A stretch of DNA of 64,000 nucleotides, from assembly GCF_006716125.1 (NCBI RefSeq), contig NZ_VFOM01000001.1, positions 496,001 through 560,000 on the forward strand, in the 5' to 3' direction. Both the position numbers and the translations under genes were made by a program. The notes beneath the pieces were generated by a model that saw nothing but the letters and a program-made list of their open reading frames with translations, was not told the origin of the DNA and searched no databases. Shown piece by piece: positions 4,734 through 36,632 of the stretch (positions are counted from its first letter, which is position 1; the number at the start of each line of letters is the position of its first letter). The stretch is from Homoserinimonas aerilata. Its GTDB lineage: Bacteria > Actinomycetota > Actinomycetes > Actinomycetales > Microbacteriaceae.

Positions 4734-4739
4734 TGCGGC

Positions 4740-5013: not shown

Positions 5014-5039
5014 CACGACAGTCGTCAGTAACTGAAGGT

Positions 5040-10176: not shown

Positions 10177-10321
10177 GAGGACGCGGCTCTCCTCTCCTAA
10201 GACGACGGAAACAGCGAACGCTCTTCCGCAAAAATGGTACCTGACCCCAGCAGTGTGCTGTGCAGTCTCCACCCGCCGCTCGAAGAACTTCAGCGCGGCA
10301 ACGAGATAATGGTACAGCGAA

Positions 10322-10511: not shown

Positions 10512-10625
10512 CCGCCGAAAGCTACACCTGACACAACCGTCTTCCGGAACGTTTTTTCGTTCCGGGGGGCGATTCTGAACTCGGCCCCGTCTGCTTGTTC
10601 GCATCACCCGTCCCCAAGGAGAGTT

Positions 10626-11216: not shown

Positions 11217-11243
11217 ATCCACCAGCCACCTTGCATCGGCTCG

Positions 11244-11834: not shown

Positions 11835-12045
11835 TGGTTTACAAGCTCCAAGGGTGAATCGGCGCGACGCGGGGTTCGCGGCGGCTCAGGGTGCACTCCG
11901 AGTTTACGAGCCGGTGACCCTTCAGAGGTGACGGGTGACTTGGGCGAGCCTGCCTTGTGAAAACCGCGCCATCTACCGTGCAGGGGGCGGGCATGTGGCT
12001 CTCGGCAACTGGCGCCGCAAGATCCGAAGGTCATTGGTGAGTCTC

Positions 12046-19754: not shown

Positions 19755-20087
19755 TAACTCCCAGCGGGCGGAGTTCACCGAGTTACCTTCGATACCAATT
19801 CGAGGTTCGGGGTTGAGGAACTGTATAACTCCTGGCAACTCATCGTCCACGTGAGTAGAAGCTCCGGTCCCGACGGAATGTTGCCTGTCCGATGCCGTCG
19901 CGTGGTTCCTAATCGTCGAGGATCCGACCTCCACACGGACCAGCCTGCGACGGTGAACTCCGAGTGCCATCCAGCAGCCTGGACCACGCTGGAAAATTAT
20001 CGTGCTTAGCCTGGAACGGCCATCCGGCCACCGTAGAAGTGGCCAATGTTCTCGAGCGTTCTGGGATATCCGGAACCACCCACCGAT

Positions 20088-20122
20088 GTCCCCGGAATCC
20101 TCACGGATTCCGGGGACTTTTT
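20088..20122 (+). terminator. Orphan rho-independent terminator
   Basis: A perfect 13-bp stem (starting GTCCCCGGAATCC) closes on a 4-base loop (TCAC) and is followed by TTTTT at 20118-20122. It reads in the + direction, but no + strand gene is visible between cmtR (which points away) and this site. It may end a transcript that entered from a gene now lost. Confidence 0.8.
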
Positions 20123-20219
20123 CGTTTCCGCATCCGCTGCGGAGGCCCGGCCCGCCGCGTCCTGCGCGTGCGCGCACACTCCGTACGGCTGCCGCGCGGG
20201 ACGTTCTAGACTCGGTGCC

Positions 20220-21398
20220 GTGCGGATGCTTAGCGGGGCTCGAAGGGTCGCCGATGCGTCGATCTTCGATCCGTGGCGGGCCGCCGGTTCTCTTCAGAAG
20301 AACATCGTCGGCGCGGTGTTGTTCGCCGCAGTGGCGCTCATCCCTGCGTTGGGGGCGTACGGGGTCGAGTTCGGCGACATGCCCCCGCGTCCGAGCGACC
20401 TGTTCGCGGTGCTTCTGACCCTTGCGCAATGCCTCCCCCTGGCGATGCGCGTGAATCGGCCGGGCATCAGCCTGGTGCTCGTCAGCAGCGCGTTCGCCGC
20501 TCATCAGCTGCTCGGGTACCCGCCGACCATTGCCGGGCTCGGGCTCTTCGTGGCGGTCTACTCCGTGGGCCGACACCAGCGGGAGTGGCGCGCGGTCGTC
20601 GCTGGGCTGGGCATCGTCGGGTATGTCGGGCTCGCGGTCGCGATGTCCCTTTCCGGCTCACCGGATCAGCCGTTCGATTTCGCGACCTTCTTTGTGGTCG
20701 TCGCTGCCGCCTGGGCGGTGGGTGCCGGGGCTCGGGCGTTGGCGGTTTCTCGGCTCGCCCAGCAACGACTCCTCGCCGAGGCGGCCCTCTCCGAGGAGCG
20801 GGCCCGCATCGCCCGCGAGCTGCACGACATTGTCACGCATCACGTCACGGCGATGGTGGTCCAAGCGGATGCGGCACAGTTCATCGCGCCGCCGCCATCC
20901 GGTCGGCTCGGCGAGAGCCTCGCCGCGATCAGTGGCACCGGTCGGCGTGCGCTGGGTGAGCTGCGGTACCTGCTCGGCACGATCGACCCCGGGGAGCCGG
21001 TGTCGCTTCCTCTCGCAGGCAGCGTCGAGGAGATCGTGGCCACGGCATCCTCGCTGGGGATGCCGGTGAGTCTGGTCGAGACAGGTGAGCCGCGCGAGCT
21101 GGCCGGGTCTGTGCGCCTGGCGATGTACCGCGTCGTGCAGGAGTCGCTCACCAATGCTCGGAAGCACGCACCCGGCTCGCTCAGCACTGTGAACATCCAC
21201 CATGGTACGGATGCGATCACGGTCGAGGTGATGACAGCACCGGCTTCGTCGCCGGTGCCGGGCCGATTCCGTGCCGGGCGGGGCATCCGCGGTCTTGAGG
21301 CGCGTGTCGGCCTGCTGGGTGGCGAGCTGTATGCCGGGCCCGGCACGGATGGCGGGTTCCGTGTCACCGCGCACATCCCGACGAGGAGTGAGCAATGA
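20220..21398 (+). CDS. NarL-type sensor histidine kinase
   Basis: About 392 residues: several N-terminal helices (about residues 28-165) without a large sensing loop, then the HisKA_3 dimerisation domain with the phospho-acceptor His in ARIARELHDIVTHH (about 202), then an HATPase domain (VVQESLTNARKHAPGS, GRGIRGLEARVGLLGG). GTG 20220 is chosen because TAGACT at 20207-20212 would place the transcript start at about that codon; ATG 20226 is the alternative. Its 3' end overlaps the response regulator (ATGA). The signal is unknown. Confidence 0.88.
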   Translation: MRMLSGARRVADASIFDPWRAAGSLQKNIVGAVLFAAVALIPALGAYGVEFGDMPPRPSDLFAVLLTLAQCLPLAMRVNRPGISLVLVSSAFAAHQLLGYPPTIAGLGLFVAVYSVGRHQREWRAVVAGLGIVGYVGLAVAMSLSGSPDQPFDFATFFVVVAAAWAVGAGARALAVSRLAQQRLLAEAALSEERARIARELHDIVTHHVTAMVVQADAAQFIAPPPSGRLGESLAAISGTGRRALGELRYLLGTIDPGEPVSLPLAGSVEEIVATASSLGMPVSLVETGEPRELAGSVRLAMYRVVQESLTNARKHAPGSLSTVNIHHGTDAITVEVMTAPASSPVPGRFRAGRGIRGLEARVGLLGGELYAGPGTDGGFRVTAHIPTRSEQ

Positions 21399-22153
21399 GC
21401 GTGATCCGCGTGGTTCTGGCCGACGACCAGGAATTGGTGCGCTCGGGGTTTGCGACGATCCTGTCGGCACAGCCTGACATCGAGGTCGTGGGCGAGGCGG
21501 CGAATGGGCGAGAAGCCGTGGCACTCGCGCAACGGCTTCGGCCCGACGTAGTCCTGATGGATATCAGGATGCCTCTTCTGGATGGAATCGAGGCGACGCG
21601 TGCGCTCGTCGGGCCGGGCAGTGATGGCGCGCTCAAGGTTCTGGTGCTCACCACGTTCAGTGCGGATGAGTACGTCTACGAGTCGCTCAGGGCGGGTGCC
21701 AGCGGCTATCTGCTCAAGGATGCCACCCCGGCCGATCTCATCCGCTCGGTGCGGGTTGTCGCCGCGGGGGATTCCATCGTCGATCCGGCGGTCACCGCGC
21801 GCCTCATCGGCAGTTTTGCGCAACGCGTCACCCCCGCAGCCCAGAAACTCGACGAGCGGCGAGTGTCGGATGCGCTGAGCGCGTTGACGCCACGCGAGCG
21901 TGAGGTGTTCTCGGCGCTCAGCCGGGGTCTTTCCAACGGCGAGATCGCATCCGCGTTCACTCTGAGCCCCGAGACCGTCAAAACGCATGTGTCTCGGGTG
22001 CTCACAAAACTGGGTCTGCGCGATCGGGTGCACGCGGTCGTCTTCGCGCATGAGTCCGGTCTGGTCAGCCCCGCGCAGGGCTCCGAGATCCCCCGAGCGA
22101 GCTACACGGATTCACCCCGCGCGGGTGACGACCCCGATCGCCGGCGTTCGTAG
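21395..22153 (+). CDS. NarL/LuxR-type response regulator
   Basis: 252 residues: a receiver domain with phospho-acceptor Asp56 (VVLMDIRMP), Thr in VLTTFS and Lys in GYLLKD; then a LuxR helix-turn-helix (LTPREREVFSALSRGLSNGEIA, cited only as the LTPREREV start, with TVKTHVSRVLTKL as recognition helix). It is coupled to the kinase upstream. An extended tail of about 30 residues follows the HTH. The CPBP protease 9 bases downstream may be in the same operon, a common arrangement in which the system controls its neighbour. Confidence 0.9.
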   Translation: MSVIRVVLADDQELVRSGFATILSAQPDIEVVGEAANGREAVALAQRLRPDVVLMDIRMPLLDGIEATRALVGPGSDGALKVLVLTTFSADEYVYESLRAGASGYLLKDATPADLIRSVRVVAAGDSIVDPAVTARLIGSFAQRVTPAAQKLDERRVSDALSALTPREREVFSALSRGLSNGEIASAFTLSPETVKTHVSRVLTKLGLRDRVHAVVFAHESGLVSPAQGSEIPRASYTDSPRAGDDPDRRRS

Positions 22154-23155: not shown

Positions 23156-23986
23156 ATGAGCCATGACATCGAGCGGGGCGCCGACGCTGGGGTGGGTGTC
23201 GCCGTCGCACAGTTCGCGCCGGGTGACGACGTCGACGCGAATCTGGCGAGCATCCGCACCCTTGCCACGGCCGCTGCCGCTCGGGGTGCCCGGCTGATCG
23301 TGTTCCCCGAGTACTCGTCATTCTTCGTGCCGGAGCTGGGGGAGTCGACCGTCGCGGCCGCCGAGCCGCTCGACGGGCATTTCGGCGTGAGTGTCGCCGC
23401 CCTCGCGAAGGTGCTCGGGGTGTTCATCGTCGCGGGCATGGTCGAGCAGACGATGGGCGGCGACCGCGTCTACAACACGGTCGTCGCGGTGGGGCCGGCG
23501 GGCGAGCGGCTCGCCGTATACCGCAAGCTGCACCTCTATGACGCCTTCGGCCAGAAGGAGTCCGACTGGGTCGTGCCTGGCGCGGTCGAGCCGCCCGAGA
23601 CCTTCGTCGTGGATGGCCTGACGGTCGCCCTGCAGACCTGCTACGACCTGCGCTTCCCTGAGATGACGAGGCGTCTGGCGGATGCGGGGGCCGATATCGT
23701 CGCCTGCCCCAGCGAGTGGGTGCGCGGCCCGCTGAAGGAGCACCACTGGCGCACCCTCGTCACCGCCCGGGCGCTCGAGAACACGCTGTTCGTCGCGGCG
23801 GCCGACCATGCGCCACCCGTCGGCGTCGGCAACAGCATGATCGTGGACCCCATGGGAGTTGTCGTCGCGGCGATCGGCGATGGCAGCGGCGTCACCCTCA
23901 ATTGGGTGACAAGACAGCGGGTACTTGACGTGCGGGCCGTGAATCCGGCACTTCAGCTGCGCAGATTCGGGGTACAGGAGCGCTAG
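23156..23986 (+). CDS. Nitrilase-superfamily carbon-nitrogen hydrolase (omega-amidase-like)
   Basis: A 276-residue C-N hydrolase with the Glu-Lys-Cys triad: Glu52 (VFPEYS), Lys124 (YRKLHLYD) and Cys162 (QTCYDLRFPE). CYDLRFPE is typical of the Nit1/Nit2/omega-amidase branch, which hydrolyses small amides such as alpha-ketoglutaramate or deaminated glutathione. The aminotransferase at 26970-28184 belongs to a family that makes such keto-amides. ATG 23156 has no strong ribosome-binding site. Confidence 0.82.
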   Translation: MSHDIERGADAGVGVAVAQFAPGDDVDANLASIRTLATAAAARGARLIVFPEYSSFFVPELGESTVAAAEPLDGHFGVSVAALAKVLGVFIVAGMVEQTMGGDRVYNTVVAVGPAGERLAVYRKLHLYDAFGQKESDWVVPGAVEPPETFVVDGLTVALQTCYDLRFPEMTRRLADAGADIVACPSEWVRGPLKEHHWRTLVTARALENTLFVAAADHAPPVGVGNSMIVDPMGVVVAAIGDGSGVTLNWVTRQRVLDVRAVNPALQLRRFGVQER

Positions 23987-24045: not shown

Positions 24046-25122
24046 ATGGCGGAGCCATATCGTGTCATCGTCGTCGAGGACGACGAGGACGTCGCCTTCT
24101 ACATCAAGACGGTTCTGACGAAGCAGGGGTGCATCGTTCAGACGTTCACCGACCCGTCGTTCGCGCGTCAGGCGATGCTCCTGTATGAACCGGATGTCGT
24201 CATCACCGACATCGAGATGCCCGGCATCACCGGAATCGAACTGATCGACCAGGTGCGGGCGGTGCGCCCGGGAACGCCCGTCGTGGTCATGACGGCGCAC
24301 GTCTCGGTCGACTACGCGGTGGAGGCTCTGCGTCACAACGCCGACGAGTTCCTGACCAAGCCCATCGCATCCGCCGACCTGATCAGCATCGTGACGAGGC
24401 TGGCCAACGAGTTCCGCAATGCGAAGGCGAATGTGCGCGAGCGCGAGGTTGTTCTCGCGATCGGCGCCCACCCGGACGATGTCGAGATCGGGGTCGGCGG
24501 CATCCTGCTCGCCCACCGCGCGGCAGGCGACGCCGTGCACATCCTCACCCTCTCGCGCGGCGGCCGTGGTGGCCATGTGACGGAGCGGCAGGGCGAGGCA
24601 TTCGAGGCGGCACGGCTGCTGGACGCGACGCTGCACCTGGAGGACCTGCCCGACACGGAGATCCCCGAGGTCGACCCCACGCAGGCGCTCATCCAGAAGG
24701 TCGTCGACGAGGTTCGGCCGTCGATCGTCTACGTGCACAGCGACCACGACATGCACCAGGACCACAGGGCCGTGCACAAGGCCGCCCTGGTGGCGACCCG
24801 TGCGGTGCGATCGGTCAGCTGCTACCAGAGCGCTTCGGCGACGGTGGACTTCCGCCCCAACCGCTTCGTGAACATCGACGGCTACCTGGAGGGCAAGCTC
24901 GCGCTCGTGCAGACGCACCGCTCGCAGCTCTCCGCCAGCCGCTACCACGCGCCGGACTTCCTGGCGGCGACGGCCCGATACTGGTCGCGCTTCGGTGACG
25001 GCGCGGCTGCTGAGCCGCTTGAGATCGTGCGCGACTCCGGCGATGTGTCGAACGCCCCCGTGGATGTGGCGCAGGCGTTGCGCGCCCACCGCGAGCAGCG
25101 TGCGCGCCAGCTCGCGCAGTAG
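24046..25122 (+). CDS. Response regulator fused to a PIG-L/LmbE deacetylase
   Basis: A 358-residue two-domain protein. Residues 5-125 are a receiver: acidic pocket EDDED (11-15), phospho-acceptor Asp55 (VVITDIEMPG), Thr/Ala switch VVVMTAH and Lys105 (FLTKPI). Residues 134-350 are a PIG-L/LmbE deacetylase with the Zn site AHPDD (141-145) and HSDHDMHQDH (231-240). PIG-L enzymes remove acetyl groups from N-acetylglucosaminyl compounds such as mycothiol or PI-glycan precursors. An enzyme in place of a DNA-binding output means phosphorylation probably controls catalysis. A histidine kinase follows 18 bases later. The substrate is unknown. Confidence 0.9.
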   Translation: MAEPYRVIVVEDDEDVAFYIKTVLTKQGCIVQTFTDPSFARQAMLLYEPDVVITDIEMPGITGIELIDQVRAVRPGTPVVVMTAHVSVDYAVEALRHNADEFLTKPIASADLISIVTRLANEFRNAKANVREREVVLAIGAHPDDVEIGVGGILLAHRAAGDAVHILTLSRGGRGGHVTERQGEAFEAARLLDATLHLEDLPDTEIPEVDPTQALIQKVVDEVRPSIVYVHSDHDMHQDHRAVHKAALVATRAVRSVSCYQSASATVDFRPNRFVNIDGYLEGKLALVQTHRSQLSASRYHAPDFLAATARYWSRFGDGAAAEPLEIVRDSGDVSNAPVDVAQALRAHREQRARQLAQ

Positions 25123-25140
25123 CTGGGCGATTTTCGTGTC

Positions 25141-26949
25141 GTGATGAAGCGGCTGATGATCCTCCTGCGTACCCTGCGCGCGGTCACCTTTGACTCCGTG
25201 CTGGTGCGCCTGCTGCCGACGGCGCTGCTGTTCGTGGTGGCGCTCGTCGTCGCGGTGGTCGTACCCGAGTTCGAGCTGCTCGACGGGCTGGCCGTCTGGC
25301 TCTCCTGCGTGTTCATGGCGCTCGCCGTCGTGCTGGCCGTGCTCTACTCGCTGCGCCCGAACATGCACTGGGTGCAGTTGGTGCCGCTGGTGGCGATGCT
25401 CGCGATCGCGGTGGCGCGGGTGGGCATCGGCTCCTTCATGACGCCCGTTCTGGTGCTTCCGATCATCTGGTTGGCGACGTCGGAGGGCGTGCGCTGGGTC
25501 GTCGTGGCGGGGCTGGCTGCTGTGGGGGCGCTCGCGCTGGAATTCACCTGGCCAGGGGCATCCGTCGGCTCCATCGAGGGGATGCTTTCGGTCGTGTTCA
25601 CGCCGCTGGCGCTGATGATCGTGGCCGCGACCGTGAACCGTATCGCGGGGGAGAACAGGCGCAGCGCCTCGGTCAATGAGCAGTTGACGCGGCAGCGCGA
25701 GTCGATGCTGGATGAGGCGGTCGACCTGGTCGGGCAGCTGCGCGCGAACGAGGCGCAGCTGAAGGAGAACGAGGGTCGTCTGCAGGCCTCAGGGCATCTG
25801 TTGCGCAGCGTGCTCGACTCGGTGAGTCGCCAGTCGGTGATCGGCACCGATCTGACGGGCCTCATCGATGTGTGGAACACGGGCGCCGAGACGATCCTCG
25901 GCCTGCGCGCGAAGGAGGCTGTCGGCTGGCGGCACATTCACGAGTTTCATCGCGGCGAGGAGCTCGACGACAGGGCCCGCGAGCTCGGCTACCCGGCGGG
26001 TGCGACCGTGCTGAATCCCGGCTTCTCCGCGCTGGTCGAGTATGCGCGGCTGGGCGGTTCGGAGGATCGCGACTGGCACTATGTGCGCGACGACGGCTCG
26101 GCCACCCCCGTGCATGTGACGGTCACGCCGCGCGTCGATGAGAACGGCCGTACGGTGGGGTACATCTTCGTCGGAACCGACATCAGCGAACGCAAGGAGC
26201 TGTCGCGTCTGCAGGACGAGTTCGTGGGTCTGGTGTCGCATGAGCTGCGTACCCCGATCAGTTCGATTCTCGGTTATCTCGAGTTGATGCGCGACGACAC
26301 GGATGCGCCCCTCTCGGACGAGCAGCGGCACTATCTCGGCGTTGCGGAACGCAACGCGCACAGGCTTCTGAGGCTCGTCGGTGACCTGCTGTTCACAGCA
26401 CAGGTGACGGCCCACAAGTTCCCGATCGAGGCGGCCGAGGTCGACGTGAACGCGCTCGTCGAGGCCGCAGTGGAATCGGCCAGGCCAGTGTCGAAGCGCG
26501 GTAATGTCCTTCTGCTGTCGAAGCCTGCCGCCGCCGCGCCGATCGTGCACGGCGACGCGACCCGCATCGCGCAGGCCTGCGACAACCTGCTGTCGAACGC
26601 CATCAAGTTCACGCCGCGCGGCGGCACCGTGACGGTCTCGGTCTCTGTGACCTCAGGGGCGGAGGGTTCATTCGCGAGGGTCGCGGTGCGCGACACGGGC
26701 ATGGGCATCCCGCCCGATGAGATCGCCCAGCTGTCGACGCGCTTCTTCCGCGCATCCACTGCCACGCGCAGCGCGGTGCAGGGGGTGGGGCTCGGCCTCA
26801 GCATCACGAAGGCGATCGTGACGGCCCATGGCGGCGAGCTGTCGGCCGACAGTGAGGTGGGCGTCGGCACGACGTTCGCGTTCACGCTTCCGCTGCTGCG
26901 GGTCGGCGAGACCGAGTCCGATGGCAGGCAGGTGCACGAGGCGTCCTGA
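25141..26949 (+). CDS. Membrane PAS-domain histidine kinase, partner of the RR-deacetylase
   Basis: About 602 residues: six or so N-terminal helices (25-165), a coiled-coil-like linker (175-215), a PAS domain (about 220-350, ending VGTDISERKE), a HisKA domain with His367 (VSHELRTPISS), and an HATPase domain (DNLLSNAIKFTPRGG, DTGMGIPPDE, GVGLGLSITKAIVTAHGG). It starts at GTG 25141 or ATG 25144. The layout, with a membrane-embedded sensor and no large external loop, suggests it senses the membrane or a small molecule. Its position implies it phosphorylates Asp55 of the RR-deacetylase. Confidence 0.9.
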   Translation: MMKRLMILLRTLRAVTFDSVLVRLLPTALLFVVALVVAVVVPEFELLDGLAVWLSCVFMALAVVLAVLYSLRPNMHWVQLVPLVAMLAIAVARVGIGSFMTPVLVLPIIWLATSEGVRWVVVAGLAAVGALALEFTWPGASVGSIEGMLSVVFTPLALMIVAATVNRIAGENRRSASVNEQLTRQRESMLDEAVDLVGQLRANEAQLKENEGRLQASGHLLRSVLDSVSRQSVIGTDLTGLIDVWNTGAETILGLRAKEAVGWRHIHEFHRGEELDDRARELGYPAGATVLNPGFSALVEYARLGGSEDRDWHYVRDDGSATPVHVTVTPRVDENGRTVGYIFVGTDISERKELSRLQDEFVGLVSHELRTPISSILGYLELMRDDTDAPLSDEQRHYLGVAERNAHRLLRLVGDLLFTAQVTAHKFPIEAAEVDVNALVEAAVESARPVSKRGNVLLLSKPAAAAPIVHGDATRIAQACDNLLSNAIKFTPRGGTVTVSVSVTSGAEGSFARVAVRDTGMGIPPDEIAQLSTRFFRASTATRSAVQGVGLGLSITKAIVTAHGGELSADSEVGVGTTFAFTLPLLRVGETESDGRQVHEAS

Positions 26950-26969: not shown

Positions 26970-28184
26970 TCAGGCTCGGCGCAGCTGCTGCAGCTGGGCG
27001 GATGCCCTGCGCAGCACCTCCTTCTGCTTGCAGAACGCGAAGCGCACGAGCGATTCGTGGCCTGCACGGTTCTGGGGGCGCACGAACGCGGTGATGGGCA
27101 CAGCGGCGACCCCCACGAGCTCCGGCATGCGGAGGCAGAGTTCCTGGGCATCGTCGAAGCCGAGAGGCGAGGCATCCGCGACGATGAAGTAGCCTGCGCT
27201 GGGCGTCATGACCGTGAATCCGGATGCTCTGAGACCGTCAGCGAGGATGTCGCGTTTGGCGCGCAGCCCCTCCCTGAGGTCGGTGAAGAAGTCGTCGCCG
27301 AGCCCGAGTCCGGCGGCGATGGCCGGTTGGAAGGGCGCGGCGTTGCTGTACGTGAGGTACTGCTTGACGGCGAGCACGGCGCTCAGCAGTTCGCGGGGGC
27401 CTGTCGCCCAGCCGACCTTCCAGCCGGTGGTGCTGAACGTCTTGCCGCCGCTCGAAATGCTGATCGTGCGCTCGCGGGCGCCCGGCAGTGAGGCGATGGG
27501 TGTGTGCGGCGCGTCGAAGGTGAGGTGCTCGTACACCTCGTCGGTGACGATGACGGCGTCGTGCTCATGGGCGAGCTCGACGATCAGTTCGAGCGTCTCG
27601 CGGCTGAAGGTGGCACCGGTGGGATTGTGCGGGTCGTTGATGAGGATGATGCGGGTGCGATCGGTGACGGCCGCCCGCAGCTCGTCCAGATCGGGCTGGA
27701 AGTCGGGTGCGCGCAGCGGCACCGTGCGGTGGATGGCCCTGCCGAGCGCGATGGCTGCGGCGTAGGAGTCGTAGAACGGTTCGAAGGTGACGACCTCGTC
27801 GCCGTCGTCGGTGAGCGCGAGGATGGTGGCGGCGAGGGCCTCTGTGGCGCCCGCGGTCACGAGCACCTCCGTGTCGGGGTCGAGCTCGATGCCGTAGAAG
27901 CGCTCCTGGTGGGCGGCGATCGCGGCCCTCAGCACGGGGTTGCCGATTCCGGGCGGGTACTGGTTGGTGCCGTCGCCGATGGCACGTTTGGCGGCGGCGA
28001 GAACCTCTGCGGGGCCGTCGCCGTCGGGAAAGCCCTGGCCCAGGTTGATCGCGCCGGTGCGCGTGGCGAGTGCTGTCATCTCGGCGAAGACGGTCTGATT
28101 CAGTGTTCCGTCGTCCGAGAGCAGCATGGCGCCCTCCGCGGTGCGCGCCCACGCGCCGCTGACCCTGCTGCCCGTGGCCGTCAT
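26970..28184 (-). CDS. PLP-dependent class I/II aminotransferase
   Basis: A 404-residue fold-type I aminotransferase. The PLP lysine is Lys248 in SISSGGKTFSTTGWKVGW; Asn187 (DPHNPTG), Asp215 and Tyr218 (VTDEVYEH) complete the cofactor site, and INLGQGFPD is the N-terminal hallmark. It resembles the glutamine transaminase K / kynurenine / methionine aminotransferase group (YbdL-like) and also N-succinyldiaminopimelate aminotransferases, so the substrate is not fixed. ATG 28184. It converges with the kinase (20-base gap). Confidence 0.85.
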   Translation of the reverse strand: MTATGSRVSGAWARTAEGAMLLSDDGTLNQTVFAEMTALATRTGAINLGQGFPDGDGPAEVLAAAKRAIGDGTNQYPPGIGNPVLRAAIAAHQERFYGIELDPDTEVLVTAGATEALAATILALTDDGDEVVTFEPFYDSYAAAIALGRAIHRTVPLRAPDFQPDLDELRAAVTDRTRIILINDPHNPTGATFSRETLELIVELAHEHDAVIVTDEVYEHLTFDAPHTPIASLPGARERTISISSGGKTFSTTGWKVGWATGPRELLSAVLAVKQYLTYSNAAPFQPAIAAGLGLGDDFFTDLREGLRAKRDILADGLRASGFTVMTPSAGYFIVADASPLGFDDAQELCLRMPELVGVAAVPITAFVRPQNRAGHESLVRFAFCKQKEVLRRASAQLQQLRRA

Positions 28185-28350
28185 GATGTCGCCGCCTTCG
28201 CCATACTTGACAGGGTACTGCGGGGGAATCTTCGGCCGGTTGCGGCGTTACACCCCACGTCAGGAACAAGGGTCGGCAGGCTCGAAGCCAGCGCATAGAA
28301 ATCGCACAGCTTCGGGATGGATGCTGGCTTCGCTTTGGAAGGAGCATCCC

Positions 28351-29781
28351 ATGACCGACAACCCCACTGAGGCCCCGAAGCCCGCCGATGACGCAGACAA
28401 GGACACGACCGTGGTCCCCGAGAGCGCAACCCCCGCGTCACCTGAGCCCCTCGCATCCGCCTCTGTCGCATCCGAGCCCGTCCCGTCCGCCACCGCGGCC
28501 GAGGGTGTTCCCGCTGCTGAGGCCGGCGCCGCGTTCGTGAGGCCTGAGGCCGCACCGAAGCGCCGCACTGCGGGTGTCGGCTTGGTCGCCGCTGTCGCCA
28601 TCGCCGCTCTCGTCGGGGGAGCGGTCGGCGGCATCGGGGTGTACGCGCTCGTCGGAAACGACGGCGGCACCCCGGTCGCCGGCTCCGGCACGGTGGGCAC
28701 CAATCTGATGGTCAATGACGTCGACACGGCCACCGTGGTCACCGGCGTCGCCGCATCCGTCGCCCCCTCTGTTGTGACGCTGTCGGTCACCGGCGGCACG
28801 GCGGCGGGCACCGGCTCGGGCGTCGTGCTGAGCGAGGACGGCTACATTCTCACCAACGCCCATGTGGCCACCCTCGAGGGGGCGACATCCGAACCCACCA
28901 TCAAGGTGCAGACCTATGATGGGCGGCTCTTCGACGCGAAGCTTGTGGGCAGCGACCCCATCGCCGATCTCGCAGTTGTCAAGATCGACAGCGATGTCGT
29001 GTTCCAGCCTGCCGATTTCGCCAACTCCGGCAAGTTGAACGTCGGCGACACGGCGATCGCCATCGGCGCCCCCCTCGGGCTGAGCAACACGGTGACGAGC
29101 GGCGTCGTGAGCGCCCTCAACCGCAGCATCACGGTGGCTTCCTCTGCGGTGCCAGACAAGGCAGCTGAGGGTGACACGACGGCACCCGACGGCAATGGCT
29201 ATGACCCGTTCGGCCCGTGGCGCTTCGACAACGGTCAGGGCGACAGCGGCAGCAGCGCGCCCGTCTCCTCGGTGATCTCTCTTCCGGTGATCCAGACGGA
29301 TGCCGCCATCAACCCCGGCAACTCGGGCGGCGCGCTGCTCAACGACGATGGCAAGGTCATTGGCATCAACGTGGCCATCGCGAGCACGGGCAGCAGTTCC
29401 TCGTCGGGCGCCGGCAACATCGGCGTCGGCTTCGCCATCCCGGCGAACTACGCCAAGCGTGTCGCGTTCGAGATCATCGACAGCGGCACGGCGACACACG
29501 GCCTGCTCGGCGCGACGGTGGCGGATGTCACCGAGGTGCAGGAGCTCGCCGACAGCTCGGTCGTCGGTGCGGCGATCGACAGCGTCTCCTCCGGCGGGGC
29601 CGCAGCGGCCGCAGGGCTCAAGAAGGGCGACGTCGTCACCTCATTCAACGGCCTGCCCATCACCGGCAAGACCGATCTGACGGCTCAGGTCCGCGTGCTC
29701 GCGGGCGGCGACAAGGCCGAGATCGTCTACGTGCGCGGAGGCAAGAGCTACACCGAGAGCGTCACGCTGGGTTCGCTCTAG
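28351..29781 (+). CDS. HtrA/DegP-like membrane-anchored serine protease with PDZ domain
   Basis: A 476-residue protease: a Pro/Ala/Glu-rich cytoplasmic tail (1-70), one helix (about 74-101), a trypsin-like domain with triad His171 (LTNAHVA), Asp206 (IADLAVVKI) and Ser325 (NPGNSGGALL), and a C-terminal PDZ domain (about 385-472, GLKKGDVVTSFNG). It acts outside the membrane in protein quality control. ATG 28351 follows GGAAGGAG. An Asp/Gly-rich insert (about 270-305) precedes the catalytic Ser. Confidence 0.92.
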   Translation: MTDNPTEAPKPADDADKDTTVVPESATPASPEPLASASVASEPVPSATAAEGVPAAEAGAAFVRPEAAPKRRTAGVGLVAAVAIAALVGGAVGGIGVYALVGNDGGTPVAGSGTVGTNLMVNDVDTATVVTGVAASVAPSVVTLSVTGGTAAGTGSGVVLSEDGYILTNAHVATLEGATSEPTIKVQTYDGRLFDAKLVGSDPIADLAVVKIDSDVVFQPADFANSGKLNVGDTAIAIGAPLGLSNTVTSGVVSALNRSITVASSAVPDKAAEGDTTAPDGNGYDPFGPWRFDNGQGDSGSSAPVSSVISLPVIQTDAAINPGNSGGALLNDDGKVIGINVAIASTGSSSSSGAGNIGVGFAIPANYAKRVAFEIIDSGTATHGLLGATVADVTEVQELADSSVVGAAIDSVSSGGAAAAAGLKKGDVVTSFNGLPITGKTDLTAQVRVLAGGDKAEIVYVRGGKSYTESVTLGSL

Positions 29782-29901: not shown

Positions 29902-30957
29902 TTGGATTCGCCGATTCGACGACTGGACAGCATGGCGCGAGAGACCTCAGAGTACCCCGGTGTCTCGTATGTCATGCCCGTGCTCAACGAGGTGGATCAC
30001 ATCGAGGCCGCGGTGCTCAGCCTCACCGCCCAGGACTATCCGGGCGAATGCGAGATCGTGCTCGCGCTGGGCCCGAGCGTCGACGGCACCAACAGGGTCA
30101 TCGAGCAGCTCGCCGAGGCCGATCCGCGCATCCGCAGCATCCCCAATGAGCTCGGTTCAACACCGGGAGGGCTGAATGCGGCGATCAGGGCGTCGCACTT
30201 TCCGATCGTGGTGCGCGTCGACGCCCACTCGGTCCTGCCTGTCGACTACACGCGCATCGCCGTCGAGACGCTGCTGCGCACGGGGGCCGACAATGTCGGC
30301 GGCATCATGAAGGCTGAGGGCGTTACCGCCTTCGAGCGGGCCGTCGCCCACGCCTATGGGGCCCGCGCCGGTCTCGGCGGCACGCCGCACCACGTGGGAG
30401 GGCAGGAGGGCCCCACCGACACCGCCTACCTCGGCACCTTCCAGCGGCACCGCCTGCTCGAGGTCGGCCTCTTCGACGAGGGCATCAAGCGCGGTCAGGA
30501 CTGGGAGCTCAACAGGCGGCTGCGGGCAACCGGCGGAACCGTGTGGTTCACGCCGGAACTCACCGTCGTCTACCGACCGCGCTCCAGCGTGGTCAAACTC
30601 GTGCGGCAGTTCGTCGCCACCGGCATCTGGCGCGGCGAACTGGCCCGGCGCTTCACGCGGGAGAACGGCATCCGCTATTTCGTTCCTCCTGTCGCCGTTC
30701 TCGGCATCCTTCTCGGCATCGTGCTGGGCGTCATCGGGGCGGTCACCGCGAGCTGGCTCGTGTGGGCTTTCGCCGTGCCCGCCGTGTATGCGCTCTTCGT
30801 GCTCGGCGCGGCCGTCCCGGTGCTGCGATCGGAGGGGCCGCGCAGCGCCCTCTGGTATCTGCTCGTGCTGCCGTGCATCCATTTCGGGTGGGGCGCGGGC
30901 TTCGTGCTCGGCTTCCTCAAGCTCAGCCGCAACATCACGGCCCAGATCGGAAGATGA
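29902..30957 (+). CDS. GT2 glycosyltransferase with C-terminal membrane helices (ExoA-like)
   Basis: 351 residues: a GT-A domain (SYVMPVLNEVDHIEAAV at the start, VRVDAHS as the DxD-type site, TAYLGTFQRHRLLEVGLFDE and a QDWELNRRL motif), then three or four C-terminal helices from about residue 255. It resembles succinoglycan ExoA-like transferases and probably adds a sugar to a lipid-linked acceptor at the inner face of the membrane. TTG 29902 has GGAGG only three bases away; ATG 29932 is an alternative. It opens a four-gene surface-polymer run. Confidence 0.8.
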   Translation: MDSPIRRLDSMARETSEYPGVSYVMPVLNEVDHIEAAVLSLTAQDYPGECEIVLALGPSVDGTNRVIEQLAEADPRIRSIPNELGSTPGGLNAAIRASHFPIVVRVDAHSVLPVDYTRIAVETLLRTGADNVGGIMKAEGVTAFERAVAHAYGARAGLGGTPHHVGGQEGPTDTAYLGTFQRHRLLEVGLFDEGIKRGQDWELNRRLRATGGTVWFTPELTVVYRPRSSVVKLVRQFVATGIWRGELARRFTRENGIRYFVPPVAVLGILLGIVLGVIGAVTASWLVWAFAVPAVYALFVLGAAVPVLRSEGPRSALWYLLVLPCIHFGWGAGFVLGFLKLSRNITAQIGR

Positions 30958-31769
30958 CCATGAGCACCGAAGCACCACGAGGGCGGCCCTCCTCCATCGC
31001 TGAGCTGCGCGCCGTCGCGCAGCCGCCCGAGGTTCGGCTGCGTGCCAACGCCGAGCACTGGACGGCATCGCTCTATCTGCGCAATCTCTCGCCGTATCTC
31101 ACGTGGATGCTGCTCAAGACGAGCGTCTCCGCCAATGGCGTCACAGGGCTCATGATCCTCGTCGGCTGGTGCACGGCGTTCAGCCTGCTGGTTCCCGGTC
31201 TCGCGGGTGCGGCGCTCGCGCTCGTCATGGGGCAGCTGCAGATGCTCGTCGACTGCTGCGACGGTGAGGTCGCGCGCTGGCGCGGAACGAGCTCGCCCGC
31301 AGGTGTCTTTCTCGACAAGGTGGGGCATTACACGACGGAGGGGCTGATCCCGATCGTGCTGGGCATCCGTGCCGCCGGCTTCCCGTTCGACGTTCCCGAG
31401 GACTTCTTCTGGACGACGCTCGGGTGCCTGCTCGCCGTGCTCATCATCCTCAACAAGGCCCTCAACGACATGGTGCATGTGGCGCGGGCCAACGCGGGGC
31501 TGCCGAAGCTCGCCGACCGCAAGGGCGAGTTGGAGCCCGACCGTCGCCTCGTCGCGAAGCTGCGCAGGGCGGCCCGTTTCGTGCCGTTCCACCGCCTGTA
31601 CCACTCGGTCGAGCTGACCATGCTCGCCTTCGCGGCCGCGATCGTCGGCCTCGCCATCGGTTCGGAACTCGCCGACAGGGTGCTCCTCGTTGCGCTCGTT
31701 CCCCTTGCCGCGCTTGCCCTCGCGGGCCACTTCGTGGCGATCATGGCGTCCAAGCGGGTGCGGGCATAG
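30954..31769 (+). CDS. CDP-alcohol phosphotransferase with altered last motif residue
   Basis: 271 residues with about six helices. The CDP-alcohol phosphotransferase motif is Asp100-x2-Asp103-Gly104-x2-Ala107-Arg108-x8-Gly117-x3-Asp121-x3-His125. The eighth signature residue, normally the Asp that acts as catalytic base, is His here. Family enzymes move a phospho-alcohol from CDP to a second alcohol. The ATG at 30954 overlaps the GT2 stop (ATGA), which links it to polymer synthesis rather than bulk phospholipid. The C-terminal basic loop (RKGELEPDRRLVAKLRR) is unusual. Confidence 0.85.
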   Translation: MTMSTEAPRGRPSSIAELRAVAQPPEVRLRANAEHWTASLYLRNLSPYLTWMLLKTSVSANGVTGLMILVGWCTAFSLLVPGLAGAALALVMGQLQMLVDCCDGEVARWRGTSSPAGVFLDKVGHYTTEGLIPIVLGIRAAGFPFDVPEDFFWTTLGCLLAVLIILNKALNDMVHVARANAGLPKLADRKGELEPDRRLVAKLRRAARFVPFHRLYHSVELTMLAFAAAIVGLAIGSELADRVLLVALVPLAALALAGHFVAIMASKRVRA

Positions 31770-31771
31770 TC

Positions 31772-32644
31772 GTGCAGAAGCTGCCGACCGTCGGCGTGGT
31801 GGTGCTCACGCAGGGCACCAGACCCGACGACCTCATGCGCGGGCTCGAGAGCGTGCTCGCGCAGCAGGGCGTCGCGCTCGATGTCGTCGTCGTCGGCAAC
31901 GGCTGGCAGCCCACAGGGCTCCCCGAGGGTGTGCGGGCTCACGGCCTGCCCGAGAATCTCGGCATCCCGGCGGGCCGCAATCGTGGCGTCGAGCAGGTGT
32001 CGGGGGAGTGGCTGTTCTTCCTCGACGACGACGCGAGCGTGCCGTCGCCAGATTTTGTGACGGATGCGATCCGCCTGATGGTCGCGGACCCCACGATCGG
32101 CCTCGTCCAGCCGCGTGTCGTCGACCCCTCTGGCGTGACGAACCCCCGTCGCTGGGTTCCGCGCATCCGCAAGGGTGACCCCACCGAGTCGAGCCCGGTC
32201 TTCTCCGTCTGGGAGGGGGCGCTCGTCATGCCGCGTGCCGTGTTCGACAGGACGGGCGGATGGGCGGAGCCGTTCTTCTACGCGCACGAGGGAATCGAGC
32301 TGGCCTGGCGGGTGTGGGATCAGGGCCTGCGCAGCTGGTACGCGGGCGAGCTCGTGGCCCATCATCCTGCGATCGAACCGAGCAGGCACGACTACTACTA
32401 CCGGCTCAACGCCCGCAACCGCGTGTGGTTGGCGAAGCGCAATCTGCCGTGGGTGTTCGCCGTTCTGTATGTGGGCTCGTGGACGGGCATCCAACTGCTG
32501 CGCTGGGCGCGGCAGCCCCGGCTGCTCGCCGCCTGGTTCGCGGGCTGGCGCGAGGGCTGGCGTGAGCCTGCGGGCGAGCGCCGCCCTATCGGCTGGGTAA
32601 CGGTTTGGCGCATGACGCGTTCAGGGCGGCCGCCCATCGTCTGA
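31772..32644 (+). CDS. GT2 glycosyltransferase (rhamnosyl/galactofuranosyl-like)
   Basis: A 290-residue soluble-type GT-A enzyme: nucleotide-binding start VGVVVLTQGTRPDDL, DxD site FFLDDDASVPS, acceptor-side motif WAEPFFYAHEGIELAWR, and RHDYYYRLNARNRVW. It resembles transferases of cell-wall polysaccharide clusters; the sugar is not assignable. GTG 31772 lies 2 bases after the stop of the preceding gene, so the two are coupled. Confidence 0.78.
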   Translation: MQKLPTVGVVVLTQGTRPDDLMRGLESVLAQQGVALDVVVVGNGWQPTGLPEGVRAHGLPENLGIPAGRNRGVEQVSGEWLFFLDDDASVPSPDFVTDAIRLMVADPTIGLVQPRVVDPSGVTNPRRWVPRIRKGDPTESSPVFSVWEGALVMPRAVFDRTGGWAEPFFYAHEGIELAWRVWDQGLRSWYAGELVAHHPAIEPSRHDYYYRLNARNRVWLAKRNLPWVFAVLYVGSWTGIQLLRWARQPRLLAAWFAGWREGWREPAGERRPIGWVTVWRMTRSGRPPIV

Positions 32645-32662
32645 GGCTGATTTAATGGGTTG

Positions 32663-33955
32663 ATGCCCGTGATCAAAGACCTCAAGACGGCCCGGCGACT
32701 GGTCACGAGCCTCCTCCGTTCGCGTCGCACGCGCCATGAGTTGGCCCGCCGACTGCCGGGGGTCGCGTCGCCGCCGCCGCGGAGCATCCAGATCGCCGTG
32801 TATTTCGCGGATTCGCGCGTCAATCTGTACCAGATCCGGCAGTGGTATGGCCCTCTGGCGGCGTTGGCGAAGAAGTGGCCGGTCGCGATCATCTCGCGCT
32901 CGCCCAGCGCGATGCTGAAGCTCGCCGACGAGGCGCCTGTTCCGGTGCAGTACCTGCGCAAGGTGGCCGATCTGGAGCATTTCGTCGAGCAGCAGGACAT
33001 CAAGATCGTGTTCTACGTCAACCAGAACGCGCGCAACTTCCAGATGTTCCGCTACGGCCGCATGTGGCATGTTTTCATCAACCACGGTGAGAGCGACAAG
33101 ATGTACATGACGACCAACCAGTTCAAGGCCTACGACTACAGTTTCATCGCGGGTCGTGCAGCCTACGACAGGCTTCGCCAGAAGCTGTGGAACTTCGACG
33201 TCGACAACCGCACCATTCAGATCGGGCGCCCCCAGGCCGACCATTTCGCCGGCGAGCTGCCGTACACGCCCGATGATCGGGTCGTGGTGCTGTATTCGCC
33301 CACTTGGGAGGGCGACAGGGCGGCTGCCGCCTACGGTTCTGTCGCATCGCACGGGGTTGCGCTCAGTTCGGCCCTGCTGGCCGACCGCCGTTTTCGCCTC
33401 ATCTACCGGCCGCACCCCCGCAGCGGTGTCATCGATCCTGATTTCAAGCGCGCCAATGAGTCGATCATCGCCGAGATCGCGGCGGCGAACCAGGCTGATC
33501 CGTCGGCCCAGCACGTCTATGACGACGGCCCTTCGCTCGGCTGGCAGCTCGCCGCGGCGGATGTCGCGGTGACGGATGTCTCGGCGATGGTCTACGACAG
33601 GCTCGCGACGGGCAAACCGCTCATCGTGACCAGGCCTGTCTCTCCGCTGACCGACGTCGACGAGGCGGGCTTCCTGGGCGCTGCCGAATGGCTGACGGCG
33701 GATGCGGCGGGCGACATCATCGCGCAGGTCGAGCGGGTGCGCGGTGACGTCGAAGCGCTCGATCGCCTGCACTACTGGGTGGAACGGCACTTCGGTGACA
33801 CCTCGCCGGGTGCTGCGACGGCGCGATTCCATGACGCCGTCGAACGTCTTGTGGGAGTGTGGCACGAGCATGCGGCGATCCATCTGGGCGATCGCCAGAT
33901 GAGCGAGGCCGACCCCTTCGTCGACGACGATGACGAGGATCCGACGACCGAGTGA
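32663..33955 (+). CDS. CDP-glycerol glycerophosphotransferase-like (TagB/TagF) polymerase
   Basis: 430 residues with a GT-B-like fold of the teichoic-acid glycerophosphotransferase family. Visible motifs are WHVFINHGESDK, VVLYSPTWEGD, RLIYRPHPRSG and TDVSAMVYDRLATGKPL; the two His-containing motifs are characteristic of TagF active sites. An acidic tail (DPFVDDDDEDPTTE) ends it. It probably transfers glycerol- or another polyol-phosphate from a CDP donor to a wall polymer. ATG 32663 is 18 bases after the previous stop. Confidence 0.8.
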   Translation: MPVIKDLKTARRLVTSLLRSRRTRHELARRLPGVASPPPRSIQIAVYFADSRVNLYQIRQWYGPLAALAKKWPVAIISRSPSAMLKLADEAPVPVQYLRKVADLEHFVEQQDIKIVFYVNQNARNFQMFRYGRMWHVFINHGESDKMYMTTNQFKAYDYSFIAGRAAYDRLRQKLWNFDVDNRTIQIGRPQADHFAGELPYTPDDRVVVLYSPTWEGDRAAAAYGSVASHGVALSSALLADRRFRLIYRPHPRSGVIDPDFKRANESIIAEIAAANQADPSAQHVYDDGPSLGWQLAAADVAVTDVSAMVYDRLATGKPLIVTRPVSPLTDVDEAGFLGAAEWLTADAAGDIIAQVERVRGDVEALDRLHYWVERHFGDTSPGAATARFHDAVERLVGVWHEHAAIHLGDRQMSEADPFVDDDDEDPTTE

Positions 33956-34014
33956 GTGGCGCCGGAGCGCCGTGACTGGTCACTTCGTGCCCGAAGGTGG
34001 CATCCGTGGGGCGG

Positions 34015-34917
34015 CTATTGACCACTCGGCGGCGTCATCGGCAGTGTCGTAGGGGCAGGCGGCGCGGATGCGTCGCCCGGCGCGGCAGCGGACGGGCCAG
34101 CCGGTAGCTGCTTGCGGAGCGGCACGGGGAGGCGTCGCGCGCCATCGCGCAGCGCTGCGCCCCCGCGTGACACATAGGCGACAAGGGGTGTGCGCGGCGG
34201 CTTGAGCTGCTCGAGGTTCGCCGGAAAGTACTCGGGTGCCGGCCCGAACGCATCCTTCGACGCGGCGACGATGCGGCGGCCGAGGATGTGACTCGCGGTG
34301 CCGCCGACGACGGCGCCGATGCCGAACGGAAGGATGCGACCGATGGCGCCCGTCGTGGTGTTGCGGGCGAAGCGCTGCAGGAACGCCCTCTTGACCCTGT
34401 CGGCGATGGGGCCCATGAAGGCCTGCGGAACGTTGCGGCCGATGACGTCGCCCCAGAAACGAGTGCGGGGCACCGCCTGGCCGGTGGCCTGCGCGGCGAG
34501 GCTGCGCACGAGCTCGGCACCCGAATTGCCCAGCATCATCGCCATCACGATGGTTCGGGCCCTGTCGGGGTCGGTGACGGCGATGCCGTGGATCTCGGTG
34601 ATCGACTGTGCGAACAGGGCACTCGCCTCGAGGAACACGGCCGTCTCCACCCCTGTGAGCGCGAGGCTGATGCCCGTGCCGACGCCCGGAATGATGGCGG
34701 CGGCCCCGACCCCTGCCCCACCCGTGGTGACGGCGGTCAGGTAGTGCCGTTCGAGGATGCGGATCACCTGTTCAGGGCTGGCCCCCGGATGCCTGCGGCG
34801 CACATTGCGCACATGGTCGAGCACGGCGGGTCGTTGCGTCGTCAGCAGCCGGTCGAAGCCGCGCACCATCATGGGGTGCGGTGTGATCTCCTCATCCTGG
34901 CTTGGCGATGCGCTCAT
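34015..34917 (-). CDS. Conserved-looking membrane-associated protein of unknown function
   Basis: 300 residues. Two Gly/Ala-rich hydrophobic segments are visible (GAGVGAAAIIPGVGTGISLAL at about 70-90 and ILPFGIGAVVGGTASHILG at about 190-210), with charged helices between them and a Pro/Ala-rich tail. The layout recalls EcsC-type proteins, but no residue signature confirms it. It is transcribed away from the neighbouring gene at 35050 and converges on the TagF-like gene with 59 bases between. The function is unassigned. Confidence 0.55.
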   Translation of the reverse strand: MSASPSQDEEITPHPMMVRGFDRLLTTQRPAVLDHVRNVRRRHPGASPEQVIRILERHYLTAVTTGGAGVGAAAIIPGVGTGISLALTGVETAVFLEASALFAQSITEIHGIAVTDPDRARTIVMAMMLGNSGAELVRSLAAQATGQAVPRTRFWGDVIGRNVPQAFMGPIADRVKRAFLQRFARNTTTGAIGRILPFGIGAVVGGTASHILGRRIVAASKDAFGPAPEYFPANLEQLKPPRTPLVAYVSRGGAALRDGARRLPVPLRKQLPAGPSAAAPGDASAPPAPTTLPMTPPSGQ

Positions 34918-35049
34918 CCGGGCTCCTATGTCTGCTGGCCTGTCGGGGAGTACAAGTGTAGGCGCATGCTCGTGCGCACCCGCTGTGCACCCCGCGCACG
35001 TTTCGCGTCACACAGGAATAGTGTTGCCGGGCATCCGGTTCTGACAGTC

Positions 35050-35697
35050 ATGACAACCATCGGAATCATCGGAGCAGGAAACATCGGCAGCAACGTGGCC
35101 AAGGCGGCTCTCGCCCACGGCTACGAGGTGGTGATCTCCAACTCGCGGGGCCCGGAGACGCTCTCGGAGCTCGTCGCCGAACTGGGCGACGGCGCGACTG
35201 CTGGCACCGTCGCAGAGGCGTCGGAGCGCGGTGAGCTGGTACTCGTCGCCATCCCGCTGAAGGCGATCGGCGACATCGACCCGGCTCCGCTGGCGGGCAA
35301 GACCGTCATCGACGCGAACAACTACTACCCGCAGCGCGACGGCCACATCGCCGAACTGGACGACGAGTCGACCACCACGGCGGAGCTGCTGCAGCGGCGC
35401 TTACCTGACTCGAAGGTCGTGAAGGCGTTCAATCACATCGGCGCGAAGCAGATCGTCGAGGATGCGCTCGCCTCCGGTCAGGCGGGGCGTCGTGCGCTCG
35501 CCATCGCAGGCGACGACCAGACGGCGAAGGATGCTGTGGCCGCCTTCATCGACGCGATCGGCTTCGACACGCTCGACCTGGGCGTTCTCGCGGAGGGCTG
35601 GCGCATCCAGCGTGACACCGCCGGGTACGTCAAGCGTTTTGACCGTGACGGGCTTGCGGATGCCGTCGCGCAGGCGAAGCGCTACCGCGACATGTAG
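35050..35697 (+). CDS. F420-dependent NADP oxidoreductase-like Rossmann protein
   Basis: A 215-residue protein with an N-terminal NAD(P)-binding motif GIIGAGNIGSNVAKAA, SNSRGPET (the phosphate-binding loop suits NADP), VLVAIPLKAI, and a C-terminal helical part (VKAFNHIGAKQI, LAIAGDDQTAKDAV). It matches the NADPH-dependent F420 reductase-like/pyrroline reductase-like group. Whether it truly uses F420 cannot be told. ATG 35050 has no clear ribosome-binding site. Confidence 0.75.
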   Translation: MTTIGIIGAGNIGSNVAKAALAHGYEVVISNSRGPETLSELVAELGDGATAGTVAEASERGELVLVAIPLKAIGDIDPAPLAGKTVIDANNYYPQRDGHIAELDDESTTTAELLQRRLPDSKVVKAFNHIGAKQIVEDALASGQAGRRALAIAGDDQTAKDAVAAFIDAIGFDTLDLGVLAEGWRIQRDTAGYVKRFDRDGLADAVAQAKRYRDM

Positions 35698-35716
35698 CGA
35701 GAACCCCGCCGGCAGA

Positions 35717-35834
35717 GGGGCACGAAGTGCCTGCCCTTCCCTCTGGTCGAGGGGCACGAAGTGCCTGCCTTGCTCTGCGGGTCGAGCGGCACGAGGTGCC
35801 TGCCCTGCCTGCTGGTCGAGGGGCACGGAGTGCC
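35717..35834. repeat. Four imperfect tandem repeats of about 35 bp
   Basis: The dyad core GGGGCACGAAGTGCC or a close variant occurs at 35717-35731, 35751-35765, 35786-35800 and 35820-35834, spaced 34-35 bases and separated by TGCCCTGCCTGCTGGTCGA-like linkers. The last copy is followed by GTCTCGAGACC-like sequence. The same family recurs at 54556-54760. Confidence 0.85.
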
Positions 35835-35861
35835 GTCTCGAGACCCGCCCCGCGAGGTCTC

Positions 35862-36632
35862 CTAGACCCCGTAGTCGGCGTTGTAGCGGTCGAGCACCTC
35901 GTCGATGGTGGAGTCGAGCACGAGTTCGCCTTTGTCGAGGTACAGGCCGCGCGTGCAGAAGCGGCGCAGGTCCTTCTCGTTGTGTGACACGAAGAACAGG
36001 GTGCGGCCGCCGGCGAGTAGCTCCTCGATGCGTCGGTAGCATTTCTCGCGGAAGGCCTTGTCGCCGACGGCGAGCACCTCGTCGACGAGGATGACGGGCT
36101 CTTCGAGGCGGGAGATCACGGCGAAGGCGATGCGCACGCGCATCCCGCTCGACAGGTGCTTGTAGGGGGTGTCGAGAAAGTCGCCGATTTCGGCGAAGTC
36201 GATGATCTCGTCGAAGCGTTCCTCGATCTCGGTGCGCTTCATCCCGTGCAGCCCCGCCGTGAGAAAGACGTTGTCGCGCACGGAGAGCTCGTCGACGAAG
36301 CCGCCTGTGATCTCGATGAGCGGGGCCACCCCGGCGTGGACGCCGACGGTTCCCTCGTCGGGCAGGATGACCTCTGCGACGAGTTTCAGCAGTGTCGACT
36401 TGCCCTGTCCATTGCGGCCGACGACGCCGATGGCTTCGCCGGAGATGACGTCGAAGCTGACACCGCGCAGCGCCCAGAATTCGCCGGGCCGGGTGCGGCG
36501 GCGGCTGCCGGCGAAGAGGTCTTTGAAGGAGCGGCGCGAACGGCGGTTGCGTTTGAATCGGATGCCCGCATCCCGTACCGAGATCACGGTGCCTGCATCG
36601 ACGGGCCGGGGGGCGACTGCTGCGGCTGTCAT
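35862..36632 (-). CDS. TagH/Wzt-like ABC transporter ATPase for polysaccharide export
   Basis: 256 residues: Walker A GRNGQGKST (72-80), signature HLSSGMRVRIAFA, Walker B VILVDEVLAVGD and switch His in FFVSHNEKD. The insertion before Walker A (RSRRSFKDLFAGSRRRT) and GGFVDELSVRDNVFL are typical of TagH/Wzt exporters of wall teichoic acid or O-antigen. It lacks a C-terminal carbohydrate-binding domain. ATG 36632 overlaps the stop of the permease (ATGA). Confidence 0.88.
   Translation of the reverse strand: MTAAAVAPRPVDAGTVISVRDAGIRFKRNRRSRRSFKDLFAGSRRRTRPGEFWALRGVSFDVISGEAIGVVGRNGQGKSTLLKLVAEVILPDEGTVGVHAGVAPLIEITGGFVDELSVRDNVFLTAGLHGMKRTEIEERFDEIIDFAEIGDFLDTPYKHLSSGMRVRIAFAVISRLEEPVILVDEVLAVGDKAFREKCYRRIEELLAGGRTLFFVSHNEKDLRRFCTRGLYLDKGELVLDSTIDEVLDRYNADYGV

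Follow-up and report, generated by a model that had tools for sequence, protein, structure and literature searches.

Background

A passage of PMC12471899 names CheB, in which a receiver is joined to a methylesterase, as an enzymatic response regulator. In this work we analyzed a stretch of 64,000 nucleotides from Homoserinimonas aerilata, a member of the Microbacteriaceae (hereafter the window), that carries a gene with a similar layout: an enzymatic output, here a PIG-L deacetylase, is fused behind a receiver, and a gene for a membrane PAS histidine kinase follows it. CheB differs from the PIG-L enzymes in fold and in substrate class; the former acts on proteins and the latter on small amino-sugar compounds. 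Direct gating of a biosynthetic step is known for few enzymatic response regulators. No paper describing a receiver-PIG-L protein was found in the open-licence literature searched, and databases already annotate the architecture by domain, as 'response regulator' or 'LmbE family deacetylase/CheY-like'. In a passage of PMC9210968, an LmbE-like gene occurs merely as a member of a WalR-responsive gene set.

The PIG-L part of the fusion shares its domain and metal motifs with BshB1 and with the LmbE/PIG-L deacetylases TT1542, BcZBP and the archaeal diacetylchitobiose deacetylase; by sequence, its best solved relatives are 1uan, 6p2t, 2ixd and 8bgn. These enzymes are not known to carry a receiver and serve other pathways. 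In mycothiol synthesis, MshA, a phosphatase, MshB and MshC carry out glycosyl transfer, dephosphorylation, deacetylation and amide ligation. These kinds of step match those expected of a glycosyltransferase (GT2), a PHP enzyme, the PIG-L deacetylase and an ATP-grasp ligase, which are encoded together in an operon of many relatives of the window; the likeness is one of logic and not of membership. The same can be said of the Nod-factor enzymes NodC, NodB and NodA, where a glycosyltransferase resembling the GT2 of the operon is followed by a deacetylase and then by modification of the free amine; the Nod-factor deacetylase and acylating enzyme belong to families other than those of the operon. 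From the analyses presented here, we conclude that the enzymatic response regulator of the window is probably the reduced remnant of a biosynthetic operon controlled by a two-component system.

Results

A receiver-PIG-L fusion followed by a membrane kinase

The features of the fusion gene and of the kinase gene located behind it are the following:

24046..25122, + strand, receiver-PIG-L fusion gene, 358 aa (single open reading frame, two Pfam domains above cut-off, conserved architecture)
24064..24393, + strand, receiver domain, residues 7-116 (Pfam Response_reg)
24454..24795, + strand, PIG-L deacetylase domain, Pfam stretch, residues 137-250
24466..24480, + strand, AHPDD motif, residues 141-145
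24736..24765, + strand, HSDHDMHQDH motif, residues 231-240
25144..26949, + strand, membrane PAS histidine kinase (ATG start; a GTG at 25141 is also possible)
25210..25635, + strand, six hydrophobic segments of the kinase (hydropathy scan)

Both domains of the fusion protein score well above their Pfam cut-offs (97.7 bits against 30.2 for Response_reg, and 83.4 against 28.2 for PIG-L), and in the alignment the conserved PIG-L columns extend past the Pfam stretch to about residue 326. The receiver of the window has D12, D13, D55, T83 and K105 intact; of 90 aligned rows, all have D12, D55, T83 and K105, and 89 have D13. In the PIG-L domain H142, D145, H231, D239 and H240 are invariant in this alignment, and D144 and H237 are each missing from a single row, both times that of locus L014 (loci are numbered with L, genomes with G). 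The residue roles, i.e. phospho-site, metal ligands and general base, are presumably those of the receiver and PIG-L families at large; the metal ligands H142, D145 and H240 and the general base D144 are kept in the window and in all five genomes of the genus. The second motif of the window has M236 at a position where 82 of the 90 rows have R. Pfam and the motifs thus agree with the first-pass annotation of this DNA, which had read a receiver (Asp55, Lys105) and a complete PIG-L metal site in one frame.

The receiver-PIG-L fusion is not rare. Of 59 near relatives 12 carry it, the five genomes of the genus among them with the window's own counted, and at E 1e-60 it is present in 53 of 329 Microbacteriaceae genomes (G216 has a partial form only); both Pfam domains are present in all of the 120 best database proteins of 2801, the window's own included. 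A scan of the named genomes gave 167 relatives, and the 80 that were kept as named loci span Microbacteriaceae, Cellulomonadaceae, Blastococcus, Nakamurella, Pseudonocardia, Janibacter, Mumia and others, together with one acidimicrobial and one Miltoncostaea metagenome-assembled genome. Because the fused architecture recurs in near relatives and in the whole genus, the assembly or start error feared in the first-pass annotation is ruled out; a chance fusion was likewise rejected, given that the architecture is common to many relatives and database proteins.

The stop codon of the fusion gene ends at 25122, and the gap to the kinase gene is of 18 bases from the GTG start, the figure given before, or of 21 bases from the ATG start. 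In the kinase, HisKA, HATPase_c and three PAS models are above their cut-offs, the six hydrophobic segments lie within residues 23-164, and the H-box histidine is at position 366 (ATG numbering). The constancy of its pairing with the fusion, proposed earlier as a check, is high: a kinase orthologue (E 1e-80) is present in 51 of the 53 Microbacteriaceae genomes with the fusion, G145 and G243 being the two without it, and in 50 of these 51 it lies downstream on the contig and strand of the fusion (in G172 the kinase matches are on other contigs). The fusion and the kinase are separated by 2308-4264 bases in the 32 genomes that have an ATP-grasp ligase, and by 21-959 bases in the 18 genomes without it. 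Among the named loci 71 of 80 have a kinase match, and the other nine either sit on short contigs or lie close to the end of one; in those Blastococcus loci that have a match, the kinase is upstream of the fusion. At L178 (G026, 3938-11887) four tandem kinase paralogues accompany a reduced fusion gene.

In most relatives the fusion heads a biosynthetic operon

The space between fusion and kinase is occupied in most relatives by genes for an ATP-grasp ligase, a PHP enzyme and mostly a membrane GT2, often along with one or two single receivers. The ligase (PF15632) lies behind the fusion in 69 of the 80 named loci, from many actinobacterial families. The GT2 of the operon, a membrane enzyme, has a QRLRW motif; its best model is PgaC/IcaA, followed by NodC (74.1 bits) and HpnI, and it is below the cut-off of every listed model. 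A ligase gene is present in 35 of the 329 Microbacteriaceae genomes, and 34 of these also carry the fusion (Fisher p 1.8e-31, kinship uncorrected); in the remaining one, G322, the ligase begins at base 3 of a contig. At a further locus, L192, the genes for PIG-L, ligase, PHP and GT2 are consecutive, and neither a receiver nor a kinase was matched at the thresholds used; an unfused PIG-L beside the other three genes therefore ties the enzyme to this trio. The PHP marker (E 1e-25) was found in only two of 396 genomes of a phylum sample, so outside the main families the operon is patchy; in both of these distant genomes the fused gene heads an operon with the ATP-grasp gene and its catalytic and receiver residues are intact.

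Other arrangements were also observed. In Nakamurella leprariae, which carries a fused gene at L107, a second locus (L209, G358) has ligase, PHP and GT2 genes beside a divergently oriented PIG-L (46%) without receiver match. At L193, L194, L196 and L210 distant PIG-L, ATP-grasp and GT2 genes are neighbors with no PHP match, which may represent an earlier or parallel version of the pathway. Further conserved members of the operon were considered and rejected, given that in the 20 of 80 loci used the clusters common to most of them overlie known genes, mostly on the opposite strand, and were taken as shadow frames.

Because the usual partners of the fusion are the ATP-grasp/PHP/GT2 trio, the most likely place of this family's deacetylase is in an amino-sugar conjugate pathway, as yet unnamed, and not in mycothiol synthesis. 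The first-pass annotation had considered a thiol as substrate; however, the window genome has separate Mca (L002, 397.7 bits, above cut-off) and MshB-like (L001, 182.4 bits, below its cut-off) genes, the GT2 of the operon, a membrane enzyme, also differs from mycothiol synthesis, and the best NCBIfam deacetylase model for the fusion is BshB1, so that an identity as MshB or Mca was rejected. BshB1 proper, of the bacillithiol pathway, was rejected as well, the score of 76.9 bits being far from the equivalog cut-off of 182.5. The window genome has a further PIG-L gene (L004, G000:C3:121941-122327) with no NCBIfam match at 1e-20.

The genus of the window has lost the trio

None of the five genomes of the genus gave a match for the ATP-grasp ligase (E 1e-10), the PHP enzyme (1e-8) or the GT2 (1e-20). 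The three genes that define the operon are thus absent from the window genome (G000), which has the reduced form only. In the tree, rooted at midpoint and with its inner order partly open, the window clade is grouped with full-operon rows (SH-aLRT 96-97), and for this reason loss is the simplest origin of the short form. In the window, the locus is flanked by these genes:

23156..23986, + strand, carbon-nitrogen hydrolase, left flank
26970..28184, - strand, PLP aminotransferase, right flank
28126..29781, + strand, HtrA-type serine protease, next right flank (its start overlaps the aminotransferase gene and is perhaps too early)

Many loci occupy this one chromosomal place, in the order carbon-nitrogen hydrolase, island, kinase, aminotransferase and HtrA, and the hydrolase was matched beside the fusion or the kinase in 20 of 30 Microbacteriaceae stretches (L165-L191, L197-L199). 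Several stages can be distinguished: the full operon (L188-L190); fusion and kinase (the window genus, L165, L166, L171 and L175); receivers and kinase without the fusion (L180-L182, L184); and the kinase alone (L179). At L173 (G216, from 2738) the fusion gene breaks off behind the first PIG-L motif, which leaves a frame of 174 aa, a receiver-only stage that precedes two single receivers and the kinase. The hydrolase was unmatched at the loci with fusion, single receiver and kinase (L167-L169, L176, L177) and at L174, with fusion and kinase. Promoter and terminator scans and a tandem-repeat scan of the locus gave nothing informative.

The PIG-L domain often decays where the trio is gone

For the comparison of rows with and without the trio, the class of the named loci rests on the ligase, the genome-wide check for PHP and GT2 covering part of them; L069 and L107, which have a ligase elsewhere in the genome, were placed in the trio class. 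Nine undecidable rows (L037, L049, L056, L078, L082, L091, L098, L109 and L111), all with intact catalytic positions, and the truncated L173 were left out. Every row with the trio (79 of 79) keeps all seven catalytic positions, as do 12 of the 23 rows without it. Along the tree, where the trio class changes eight times with locus-only classes and five times with genome-level classes, parsimony places all 14 catalytic substitutions on nine branches, every one of them trio-less, although the trio-less branches make up 7.81 of the 30.81 of tree length (25%; binomial p 4.5e-9, taking each substitution as independent, which is not the case; counted by branch, nine of nine, p about 4e-6). The five key receiver sites show no change on trio-less branches and one elsewhere (D13E in L088). 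In all, 11 rows have a broken PIG-L with an intact receiver; several positions are affected in L167 and L171, and D144N and H237S occur together in L014 and L169. Without the trio, therefore, the PIG-L domain often decays.

The window clade, whose catalytic set is complete, takes an intermediate position and departs from the family at R236M, T230V and V306L, and in some rows at P263A. Within the genus (6 pairs), the PIG-L domain diverges 1.80 times as much as the receiver; this ratio is 0.75-0.94 for operon-bearing rows and 1.35 for the other reduced Microbacteriaceae. Of the seven genus pairs, six have a PIG-L dN/dS of 0.12-0.28, and the close pair L007/L008 has 0.04; nine hand-chosen operon-bearing pairs gave 0.019-0.072. 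For the receiver, the values of the genus and of the operon-bearing pairs overlap. The constraint on the PIG-L domain of the window is thus about fourfold weaker than in operon-bearing relatives.

Among the matches listed, D144 is replaced by G or S in 13 of the 21 homologues at 70% identity or more, namely all 12 at 70-73% identity (the sister clade), which are Homoserinimonas by the names given for two of them, and P0005 at 79%. These D144-less homologues keep the three metal ligands H142, D145 and H240. G071 (72% identity) is of the same kind and has neither ligase nor GT2.

Other genes near the locus

Downstream of HtrA, in the region 29902-36632, Pfam gave matches for a CDP-alcohol phosphotransferase and for a GT2, and the region is perhaps an envelope polymer cluster; by eye, it also includes a second glycosyltransferase (29902-30957), an open reading frame like polymer glycerophosphotransferases (32660-33955, no NCBIfam match) and an ABC ATPase like those of polysaccharide export (35862-36632). 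On the other side, at 20046-22153, there is a second two-component system with a HisKA_3 kinase and a NarL-type regulator, families that differ from those of the PAS kinase.

Discussion

The domains, the operon, its loss and the pattern of substitutions are observed directly. From the gene content of the operon we infer the order of the four steps and the product: the membrane GT2, of PgaC/NodC/HpnI type, would add a GlcNAc-like sugar, the PHP enzyme would remove a phosphate, PIG-L would free the amine of the sugar, and the ATP-grasp ligase would acylate this amine. The membrane PAS kinase is predicted to phosphorylate D55 of the fusion protein, whose receiver would gate the cytoplasmic deacetylase, and the deacetylase of the family would be one step of this four-enzyme pathway, encoded for the most part in the same operon. 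The genus of the window has lost the ligase, the phosphoesterase and the glycosyltransferase and kept the regulator-enzyme and its kinase, and the protein of the window, as a remnant, is probably retained mainly as the phospho-partner of the kinase and may be on the way to a pseudoenzyme output. The first-pass annotation anticipated the kinase pairing and the complete catalytic set of this protein; its thiol found no support, and it missed the loss of the trio and the decay of PIG-L domains.

Several observations weigh against the view of the window protein as a remnant of this operon. The substitutions at catalytic positions are not independent (four are in L167), and an independent-pairs test, with four pairs, was not significant (median p 0.5). 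Nine Leifsonia loci have ligase and PHP genes and no GT2 in the operon, and the GT2 is likewise absent from the operon in L096 and L099; a GT2 orthologue is present elsewhere in the genome in six of six genomes of group g77, placed with Leifsonia in the tree. The ligase can be lost without decay: in the Cellulomonas hominis group (L075, L077, L083, L089) the genomes have no ligase and all catalytic residues are kept, with 1-4 deviations. L038 is also trio-less and intact, and the locally reduced L078, L082 and L111, outside the count, keep their catalytic residues. Conversely, L107 has 17 deviant sites in a genome that has the trio, beside another PIG-L without receiver match. From the intact Cellulomonas hominis group and L038, and the decaying L107, it follows that the enzyme may find other work. 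In the genus itself, all seven catalytic positions are intact in the five genomes, and a dN/dS well below 1 is compatible with activity on a different substrate.

The last two points speak for an alternative reading, in which the window protein has kept its full function as a deacetylase gated by phosphorylation and has been turned to another substrate of this genus, e.g. an envelope precursor from the polymer genes at 29.9-36.6 kb. It is consistent with the Cellulomonas hominis group, where an intact enzyme has outlived the ligase, with the glycosyltransferase and CDP-alcohol transferase genes downstream, and with the homologues at 75% identity or more, which besides the window are intact in eight of nine cases among the matches listed (P0003-P0011; P0005 is broken). 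Nevertheless, the constraint on PIG-L is down several-fold, R236 beside a catalytic histidine has been replaced, the sister clade has lost D144, and the aminotransferase and HtrA genes separate the polymer genes from the fusion; we therefore regard this reading as rather unlikely.

It is more doubtful still that the window protein is already a pseudoenzyme response regulator, whose PIG-L fold would bind a metal, a ligand or a partner and relay phosphorylation without catalysis. The recurrence of a broken PIG-L with an intact receiver in 11 rows is in line with this idea, as are three pairs of broken rows with a PIG-L dN/dS of 0.11-0.46 and the metal ligands that the sister clade keeps despite the loss of D144. 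In contrast, the catalytic set of the window itself is complete, and the conservation of a dead fold may merely reflect protein stability or slow decay. That the receiver is a mere phosphate sink or dimerization unit, with another regulator as the real output of the kinase and PIG-L regulated little or not at all, is highly improbable: the kinase does occur without the fusion in 12 Microbacteriaceae genomes at the thresholds used (and in G322, at a contig edge), several of these kinases adjoin single receivers (L180-L182, L184) and G216 keeps the receiver with a truncated PIG-L, but in the loci of the window and its genus (L185-L187, L035) the kinase had no matched single receiver next to it, and the fusion is kept across many families where the trio is present.

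Extending the reading as an operon remnant to the whole family is a tentative step, which we would not yet favor: an amino-sugar conjugate pathway of Actinomycetota would be switched by phosphorylation of its deacetylase, and upon loss of the pathway the deacetylase would repeatedly become a catalytically dead, phosphorylatable response regulator. If true, an enzyme output became a pseudoenzyme signaling output several times over. With the whole operon, the natural control L192, whose PIG-L is unfused, and a graded series of decay stages, many of them at one chromosomal place, it is testable what selection keeps of a signaling enzyme after its pathway has been lost. The operon itself suggests that Leifsonia, Cellulomonas, Blastococcus and their relatives have an unnamed sugar-conjugate pathway.

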